Shown: in pieces, positions 8,240 to 52,105 of the stretch
Layout: each line of letters starts with the position of its first letter
Numbering within the stretch: position 1 is the first letter of the stretch
Origin: Halorubrum sp. CBA1229
GTDB lineage: Archaea; Halobacteriota; Halobacteria; Halobacteriales; Haloferacaceae
DNA: 64,000 bases
NCBI RefSeq assembly: GCF_003721435.2
Contig: NZ_CP054585.1
Coordinates: 372,001-436,000 of the forward strand
Reading direction: 5' to 3'
Program-made: the position numbers and the translations under genes
The notes under the pieces: generated by a model
What the model saw: only the letters and a program-made list of their open reading frames with translations
What the model was told of the DNA's origin: nothing
The model's database searches: none

Positions 8240-9526
8240 ATGAAGCCAGAAATGAGTCGAACCGTCCGAACCTTCGAGGCCACCATCACGAACCAGCAAC
8301 AGGTTCGTGACGACCTTGATCAACTCGGATGGGCCGCCTCAAAACTCTGGAACGTCGGTCGCTACTACGCACAAGAACAGTGGGACGAAACGGGCGAGAT
8401 TCCCGATGACGGGGAACTCAAAGCCGAACTCAAAAGCCACGAACGCTACACGGACTTACATTCTCAGTCCAGTCAGCGCGTTCTCGAAGAACTCGCTGAA
8501 GCGTTCAACGGCTGGTTCGGTAAGCGTCGGAACGGCGACGACCGTGCCAGACCGCCCGGCTACCGCAAGAACGGAGATTCTCACCCTCGTTCAACCGTGT
8601 CGTTCAAAGCGGCTGGCTTCAAGCACGACGCACAGTTCACCCGCGTTCGCCTCTCGAAAGGCCGCAACCTCAAAGAACACCGTTCAGACTTCATCCTGTG
8701 CGAGTACCAGACTCGCCCGGACGTTGATCTGACCGAGTGGGACATTCAGCAGGTTCGCGCGATCTACAAGCGCGACGAATGGCGGCTTCAATTCGTCTGT
8801 CGCACCACCATCGACCCGGAACCGCCGGGCGACGAGGTGGCCGGTGTTGACCTCGGGATTTGCAACTTCGCCGCCGTCTCGTTCGGCGGTGAAGCGGTGT
8901 TGTATCCCGGTGGCGCACTCAAAGAGGACGAATACTACTTCACGAAAAAGAAGGCTAAGTGCGACGATTCCTCGTCTCGTGTGGCCACCCGACTTGACCG
9001 CAAGCGGAGGGGTCGTCGGACACACTTCTTGCACGCGCTCTCGAAAGCGATTGTCGAGGAGTGCATCGAACGAGATGTCGGGACTCTTGTCGTTGGCGAC
9101 CTCGGCGGGATCCGAGAGGGCGACGAGAACGGCGAGTCTCGGAATTGGGGCGACCACGGCAATCTCGACTTGCACGGGTGGGCGTTCGACCGCTTCGCGA
9201 CGCTACTCGACTACAAGGCGGAAGCCGAGGGCATCGACGTGGAGTTGGTGTCGGAACGCGATACGTCGAAGTCGTGTTCAGCATGTGGTCACACGGACGA
9301 TAACCAACGGGTCAAACGTGGGTTGTACGTCTGTGAGGCGTGCGATACGGTTGCGAACGCGGACGTGAACGGTGCGGAGAACATTCGACAAAAGGTACTC
9401 CCGAGTCTCGCCACGGATGGCGGCGATAGGGATAACGGCTGGTTGGCACAGCCAGCGGTTCACCTGTTCGACCGCAGCGAGGGCAGTTTCGCCCCGCGAG
9501 AACAGGTCGTGAACCGCGAACCATAA
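8240..9526 (+). CDS. tnpB: TnpB-family RNA-guided nuclease / IS1341-type transposase (428 aa)
   Basis: Relatives are RNA-guided DNA nucleases ancestral to Cas12. The order is an N-terminal wedge/REC-like helical part (to about 190), then a split RuvC domain. RuvC-I is GVDLGICNF with Asp204. RuvC-II is LVVGDLGGIRE (283-293), where the usual catalytic Glu is Gly286. A zinc ribbon is formed by C346-C349 and C365-C368, and RuvC-III is NADVNGAENI with Asp375. Full length for the family, no stops or frameshifts. A TATA-like stretch with ACTATTAACAAAA lies about 30-40 nt upstream. Start ATG at 8240; a second ATG at codon 5 is possible. Its 3' end overlaps the predicted guide RNA. Confidence 0.9.
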   Translation: MKPEMSRTVRTFEATITNQQQVRDDLDQLGWAASKLWNVGRYYAQEQWDETGEIPDDGELKAELKSHERYTDLHSQSSQRVLEELAEAFNGWFGKRRNGDDRARPPGYRKNGDSHPRSTVSFKAAGFKHDAQFTRVRLSKGRNLKEHRSDFILCEYQTRPDVDLTEWDIQQVRAIYKRDEWRLQFVCRTTIDPEPPGDEVAGVDLGICNFAAVSFGGEAVLYPGGALKEDEYYFTKKKAKCDDSSSRVATRLDRKRRGRRTHFLHALSKAIVEECIERDVGTLVVGDLGGIREGDENGESRNWGDHGNLDLHGWAFDRFATLLDYKAEAEGIDVELVSERDTSKSCSACGHTDDNQRVKRGLYVCEACDTVANADVNGAENIRQKVLPSLATDGGDRDNGWLAQPAVHLFDRSEGSFAPREQVVNREP

Positions 9527-9605
9527 TATCCCAACTCAGCGGTGCGGTGCCGTGGGATTCCCGCGTCTTCAGGCGCGGGAGGATGTCAAGCGGGCGGTAG
9601 ACTCC
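9440..9605 (+). ncRNA. Putative TnpB guide RNA (omegaRNA / sense-overlapping transcript), 5' end uncertain
   Basis: In characterised TnpB systems the guide RNA derives from the 3' end of tnpB and stops inside flanking DNA; haloarchaeal IS1341-type genes are known to produce such sense-overlapping RNAs. Here the segment after the stop folds into CCCGCGTCT-TC-AGGCGCGGG (9560-9579, nine pairs including one G-T), followed by AGGATGTCAA, where the element appears to end (9589). The next roughly 16 nt (9590-9605) would be the guide. The 5' boundary is a guess. Confidence 0.6.
9560..9579 (+). repeat. Right-end hairpin of the tnpB element
   Basis: Nine-pair stem with a two-base loop, CCCGCGTCT-TC-AGGCGCGGG, located 34 nt after the tnpB stop and 10 nt before the inferred element end. 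It probably serves both as the DNA end structure and as the terminal stem of the guide RNA. Confidence 0.65.
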
Positions 9606-51727: not shown

Positions 51728-52105
51728 ATTTTATAAGTAATCACGACATCCCGCGGAGGTTTTTTAAGTAAGATTGCGGTGGCGCGCCTCCGAGCGGTCG
51801 CCGCCGGCGACCGCGAGGAGTCCGCGAGGGACGCGGTGAGCGCTCGAAGAGCGCGAACCGCGAGGCTGGGGAGGCGTGAGGCTGCGGTGGGTGGGACTCA
51901 AAGGGGCAGTCGCGAGGACGGCGCAGGTGACGCAAGGACCGCAAGGAGCGACCAGCGCGAGCGACTGAGGACCGCAGCGAGCGTGCGCCGTCCTCGCGAC
52001 TGGGGCTTTGGCGGTGTTCACCGCAGAGTTGTCGGCCGCGTATAGCCGAGCGGCTGGGGCTTTGGAGGTGCTCCCCGTCGACCCGCAGTCAACGACTTAT
52101 AAATG
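51728..52105 (+). ncRNA. Putative structured RNA / dispersed repeat element without protein-coding sense
   Basis: Starts with a TATA box (TTTTATAAG) and ends in its inverted counterpart (CTTATAAAT, about 52096-52104). Between them are at least four strong hairpins: 51795-51813 (eight pairs, GCC loop), 51832-51862 (six pairs, tandem G-A mismatch, six pairs, GAA loop), 51899-52010 (CAAAG stem, 3x3 loop, then a perfect 19-bp stem at 51907-51925 / 51984-52002) and 52035-52054. The segment CTGGGGCTTTGG occurs twice (about 51999 and 52053). Open frames here are arginine-rich without codon bias. Sequences of this kind, as I recall, recur in many haloarchaeal genomes. Confidence 0.6.
51907..52002. 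repeat. Perfect 19-bp inverted repeat (arms 51907-51925 and 51984-52002)
   Basis: Arm 1 begins CAGTCGCGAGG and arm 2 is its exact complement; spacer 58 nt. Flanking CAAAG/CTTTG extend it across a 3x3 GGG/GGG loop to 51899-52010. This is the largest dyad in the window outside the tnpB element. Confidence 0.9.

Follow-up and report, generated by a model that had tools for sequence, protein, structure and literature searches.

The window analyzed here is a 64,000-nt stretch of the genome of Halorubrum sp. CBA1229 (contig NZ_CP054585.1, positions 372,001 to 436,000). Within it, positions 51729–52104, between a HAD phosphatase gene and a MOSC gene, hold a single copy of a dispersed family of intergenic repeats. 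An earlier note on this region had described a stretch with no convincing gene and very high folding potential; the open reading frames are arginine/serine-rich and unconserved, and 51728–52105 folds far more stably than its shuffled versions on both strands (z = −5.2 for the plus strand and −7.5 for the minus strand; 0 of 100 shuffles as stable). The motifs and pairings named in that note are all present, and the layout of the copy is as follows.

51729..51737, no strand assigned: outer 5′ boundary motif, the upstream TATA-like box TTTTATAAG (from sequence)
51760..51768, plus strand: inner TATA-like box TTTTTTAAG, directly 5′ of the conserved start (from TATA enrichment upstream of the copies in this genome)
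51776..51826, plus strand: 5′ domain helix P1, with its GCGGTGGCGCG start, a stem with a symmetric GA/GA internal loop and a GCC loop (46-copy alignment A2)
51832..51862, plus strand: 5′ domain helix P2, the GCGGT-GA-GCGC hairpin (alignment A2 and inspection)
51861..51881, plus strand: conserved linker CGAGGCTGGGGAGGCGTGAGG, with columns mostly invariant in 57 copies
51889..51906, plus strand: conserved GGGTGGGACTCAAAGGGG box (class-wide form GGGTGGGACTGAAAGGGG), which holds the first three of four conserved G-tracts
51897..52011, plus strand: core long stem of 35 pairs
52000..52053, plus strand: first tail unit, 54 nt (usual unit, 57 nt), beginning with CTGGGGCTTTGG
52054..52104, plus strand: last tail unit, CTGGGGCTTTGGAGGTG..., ending in CTTATAAAT (from sequence)

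The GCC-loop hairpin (GCGGTCGCC/GGCGACCGC, 51794–51814), previously given a stem of 8 bp, has one of 9 bp and sits inside the longer stem with the GA/GA internal loop. The GA/GA stem (GCGGT-GA-GCGC / GCGC-GA-ACCGC) was located at about 51833–51861, the perfect 19-bp stem is formed by 51907–51925 and 51984–52002, and CTGGGGCTTTGG occurs twice, starting at 52000 and 52054, all in agreement with the earlier description. The enclosing TATA-like motifs are likewise there (TTTTATAAG at 51729–51737 and CTTATAAAT at 52096–52104); their reading as two facing boxes falls away, because TTTATAAA is its own reverse complement and the facing boxes are therefore one motif, which is repeated at the head of the element and after every 57-nt tail unit. 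Some other copies have an extra A+T-rich box ~30 nt ahead of the first box. In the core long stem, an outer TCAAAG/CTTTGG helix is followed by a GGG × GGG internal loop, the 19-bp helix and then alternating steps; by inspection, two Watson-Crick pairs alternate with tandem G.A pairs in this inner stem. P2 differs in length and sequence among copies with its complementarity kept (alignment A2 and inspection), and it was left out of the pair-by-pair count because its register shifts between subtypes.

Across the class, the core consists of (C)GGGTGGGACTGAAAGGGGC, a stem of ~90–100 nt and then GGGGCTTTC-N-GG-N-GTTC, and takes the form GGGTGGGACTCAAAGGGGCAG ... CTGGGGCTTTGGAGGTGTTC in Halorubrum. 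Because the GGG × GGG internal loop splits the outer AAAG/CTTT pairing from the main helix, the element is no simple inverted repeat; rare exceptions have CCCC on one side (e.g., L034). Many copies add a 5′ domain made up of two length-variable hairpins and the box CGAGGCTGGGGAGG, and those of Halorubrum also have TTTATAA boxes at their head and 57-nt tail units in tandem. There is one tail unit in 35 copies, two in 31 and three in 15 (maximum five), with a spacing of 57 nt in 58 of 71 cases; the unit, CGAGCGGCTGGGGCTTTGG...TTTATAA, resembles a shortened duplicate of the element's own 3′ end. The G-tract pattern GGGNGGG-N6-9-GGGG...GGGG is matched strictly by 74 of the 86 copies in this genome, and GGGNGGG is found in 19 of 23 distant cores. 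Judging from the letters, the four conserved tracts (GGGNGGG-N7-GGGG-hairpin-GGGG, in the box 51889–52005 and its class-wide equivalents) could form a quadruplex at molar K+; molar internal potassium would stabilize such a structure. Some copies (L311, L314, L319, L322, L329, L030, L313, and L035 of this genome) are interrupted at several internal places by extra-hairpin modules of ~50–90 nt, such as GGGCAGCCGGCGGC-GAAG-CCGCCGGCGACA, which resemble a second, smaller hairpin family nested within the first.

Covariation in the stems, on which the earlier note had made its case depend, is very strong in both the core and P1. In the core, 97.6% of 1980 cells keep their pairing, compared with a mean of 85.9% after shuffling, double changes occur in 23 of 35 pairs, with 222 doubly changed cells against 53 after shuffling, and controls in which the pairing was slid all collapse. 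In P1 (46-copy alignment A2), 94.6% of cells are paired against 82.7% after shuffling, and 8 of 17 pairs have double changes (75 doubly changed cells against 22.5). The shuffle controls leave the relatedness of the copies in place; chance is nevertheless untenable as an explanation, because the slid controls collapse and because of the number of pair types. The paired columns contain 49 G-U and 4 A-C combinations (p = 7e-11, although the cells depend in part on one another). In double-stranded DNA, a C-to-T change amounts to a G-to-A change on the other strand, so the excess shows selection on the plus strand as a single strand, and the asymmetry fits RNA and DNA alike as the selected strand. 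That copies change in sequence and keep their base pairs indicates that something in the cell recognizes the folded strand. A protein-coding reading was rejected because the length changes in the hairpins are not divisible by 3 and the open reading frames are unconserved.

Besides the copy in the window, blastn gave at least 39 matching places in the genome at 71–83% identity. A covariance model of the core (R1), built on 57 copies from this genome and genus, gave 111 matches in the genome at E ≤ 0.01, of which 86 scored above 84 bits, so the sequence is far from the single-copy case that the earlier note had allowed for. All matches lie on the 3.22-Mb chromosome, with a weak strand bias among the copies (51 plus, 35 minus); the second replicon (C2, 363,938 bases) has none at E ≤ 0.01, although the density on the chromosome predicts ~10. 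Copies occur in all 52 Halorubrum genomes searched and, class-wide, 218 of 292 genomes had a match, spread over 61 of 77 genera; match counts at E ≤ 1e-5 ranged from 3 to 74 in sixteen chosen distant genomes. In a phylum sample of 295 genomes, the 35 with matches at E ≤ 1e-6 all belong to the order of the window, and ~240 genomes from other classes of the phylum gave no match. A scan for an exact pattern across 84,980 species returned at least 120 matching stretches; among the matches listed, 80 of 80 were from haloarchaea, including Halobaculum, Haloarcula, Natrinema, Natronococcus, Haladaptatus, Halorussus, and Halovenus, and the named matches to the genus-type form fall in Halorubrum records. 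A viral origin was rejected, as 2.9 million viral contigs contained no match and no phage record matched. The idea that the family is confined to chromosomes was also dropped, as some haloarchaeal plasmids have 1–3 copies each. Some copies are labelled as hypothetical proteins (plasmid records CP002989.1, CP031304.1, and NZ_CP084884.1); these records, with the matches, bear out the earlier note's remark that relatives of this sequence turn up repeatedly among haloarchaea and give rise to spurious proteins. The palindromic or mobile repeat that the earlier note had proposed and a structured strand are both supported, by copy number and by covariation; a function as RNA would be only a possibility.

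Copies turn over between close relatives. Flanks of 34 copies were traced in G032, the closest of the relatives searched (92% identity in the neighboring HAD gene), and 30 loci were compared: the element is kept on the same strand at 17, and at ~9 the flanks align and the element is missing. At one locus (L329 at C1:869953 of this genome; L339 in G032), the same two genes flank an element of opposite orientation, which suggests an inversion or an independent insertion at the same site. The remaining loci fall at contig ends, and draft contigs of G032 end inside copies (L330, L332, L340, L351, L354, and L358), so the family breaks short-read assemblies. The HAD–MOSC site itself is without the element in G032 and G009; behind the HAD gene, G031, G051, and G044 carry forms that are full, have internal deletions or consist of the head alone. 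The earlier suggestion to look for target duplications in the flanks brought nothing to light, with no clean duplication recognizable at eight compared sites because the intergenic spacers have themselves diverged. At six same-site pairs, the core shows compensation by double change in 26 cases, G-U-type changes in 4 and breaks in 6, which reflects either strong purifying selection or the replacement of one copy by another. The patchy presence of copies could be due in part to recombination between species rather than transposition.

Genes around the copies were called by a simple codon-usage scorer, and the context counts are approximate. The copies in this genome are intergenic, with a questionable overlapping gene prediction in 9 of 86. 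They lie between convergent genes in 24 cases and divergent genes in 11, compared with 7 and 27 for background intergenic regions (p = 9e-5); at other loci, 28 of 81 are convergent, compared with 49 of 309 background regions (p = 4.5e-4). Of the genes next to a copy, 46 of 83 upstream ones and 32 of 82 downstream ones share the strand of the element, and a UTR element with a fixed orientation to its neighbor was rejected because orientation is not fixed in this genome. Twelve head-to-head doublets with spacers of 23–33 nt were found in other genera; such doublets are not the rule in Halorubrum.

The reading that we prefer, and hold with about as much doubt as conviction, is that of structured, non-autonomous repeats in intergenic DNA, forming one family across Halobacteria and behaving in the manner of bacterial REP/BIME/REPIN elements. 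Many copies, a strand-specific hairpin, doublets with fixed spacing, a bias toward the 3′ ends of genes, and gain, loss and inversion of copies together point to a REPIN-like mode. In the proposed mechanism, one strand would fold from the box GGGTGGGACTGAAAGGGGC through the long stem with tandem G.A steps to GGGGCTTTC, and a trans-acting enzyme of the host or of a mobile element would recognize it; copying, inversion or loss of the repeat would follow at intergenic sites, chiefly at the 3′ ends of genes. The spread would be driven by this recognition, and the folded strand would presumably be DNA during mobilization, with an RNA form (a 3′ UTR or a separate transcript) being secondary. Several observations count against this reading: the searches for Y1 transposase and reverse transcriptase yielded no mobilizer, no clean target duplication was seen, the element is much larger than REPs, absence from the second replicon and sparseness on plasmids are unlike a freely mobile element, and the mostly intact pairs at shared sites mean that individual copies could be functional.

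Chief among the alternatives is a family of structured RNAs, each transcribed on its own from a TATA promoter, present in many copies and acting with one common partner, either a protein or the ribosome; we consider it a serious possibility, albeit a clearly less probable one. Covariation and the G-U/A-C asymmetry are typical of a functional single strand, the variable orientation to neighboring genes suits a separate transcript, and the same-site pair changes between sister species are mostly compensatory. In 42 of 75 copies of this genome (56%), compared with 2.6% of control windows, a TATA-like box lies within the 50 nt that precede the start, at a narrow distance, mostly 5–10 nt. However, a normal archaeal start site lies about 24 nt downstream of the TATA box, so transcription from a box ending ~5–10 nt before the start would cut off the 5′ strand of P1. 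The box was also not seen in most of the distant genera, no TATA box or promoter is visible by inspection in the doublet spacers of other genera, and the gain, loss and inversion of copies between sister species sit poorly with a set of RNA genes.

Less probable still, though not negligible, is a cis-acting RNA element at mRNA 3′ ends that would serve as a terminator, a stabilizer or an insulator between convergent genes. It accords with the enrichment of convergent intergenic regions and with copies located just past stop codons, but not with the same-strand fractions for upstream and downstream genes given above, nor with the absence of about one third of the copies at the same site in the sister species. 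A conventional element of the MITE or IS-derived kind, mobilized by a transposase resident in the genome, such as an IS200/IS605 remnant like the PATEs of Haloquadratum, would likewise be dispersed, intergenic and polymorphic between species, and yet it is the least probable of these readings. The element lacks the usual terminal inverted repeats, its GGGG/GGGG base being non-complementary and strand-specific; the eight compared sites have no target duplication, and nothing in it matches the TnpB-associated sot RNAs. Nor does the Y1 transposase (PF01797) follow copy number: it was found in none of G172, G280, G071, G253, and G279, of which G172 and G280 are high-copy genomes, and it is common in genomes with no copies. 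The sole Y1 gene of this genome is an ordinary IS605 transposase adjoining TnpB. IS200/IS605 or a RAYT as the mobilizer was rejected on this lack of correlation, and a retroelement or SINE-like reading on the absence of reverse transcriptase (PF00078) from all 17 genomes searched, where the controls were positive. With Y1 missing from several high-copy genomes and no reverse transcriptase, the usual mobilizers do not account for the family.

There is a fair chance, though one below even, that the repeat belongs to a categorically new archaeal system, in which a structured strand, possibly a quadruplex-duplex made up of the four G-tracts, would be copied or flipped within chromosomes by a haloarchaeal enzyme that is neither a Y1 transposase nor a reverse transcriptase.

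The family seems to be previously undescribed: a search of the literature by topic and by sequence string, subscription journals and preprints aside, found no description of it, and no Rfam family matched at its gathering score (with E up to 5, two weak rows at chance level only). An Rfam match to sot0042, a sense overlapping transcript RNA, lies elsewhere in the window (9393–9580, plus strand) and is unrelated to the repeat. At an estimated ~1% of a haloarchaeal chromosome (~86 copies of 300–450 nt in 3.2 Mb), the repeat is found in most haloarchaeal genera with its folded shape tightly conserved, confuses annotation through spurious open reading frames, and breaks assemblies. As a REPIN-like system it would be the first large one in archaea; the alternative is a structured RNA family that ranks among the largest in any archaeon. 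Both readings are directly testable in culturable strains.

Among known systems, the family resembles the structured RNA families of Rfam in having a consensus structure backed by covariation, whereas its copy number and turnover are far higher than those of ordinary RNA genes. Like the PATEs (palindrome-associated transposable elements) of Haloquadratum, it is non-coding, multi-copy and haloarchaeal; PATEs carry IS200/IS605 ends, and none were recognized here. sot0042-type RNAs occur with IS200/IS605 TnpB genes, and that TnpB-linked family does not match the repeat. Bacterial REP, BIME and REPIN elements occur as dispersed copies with a strand-specific hairpin, doublets of fixed spacing, a preference for gene 3′ ends and turnover between relatives. 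The present family is similarly high in copy number, intergenic, hairpin-forming, strand-specific, biased toward 3′ ends and subject to turnover, and in other genera it forms inverted doublets with a short fixed spacer. It differs from REPs in two defining features, unit size with foot sequence and the presence of a RAYT. REPs have a GTAG/GGAG hairpin foot and an associated RAYT, whereas the foot here is formed by the GGGTGGGACTGAAAGGGGC ... GGGGCTTTC boxes, and several high-copy genomes have no RAYT/Y1. In place of a unit of 20–40 nt, the repeat has one of ~115–380 nt, multi-helix and strongly covarying, and exceeds every REP by far in both size and complexity.
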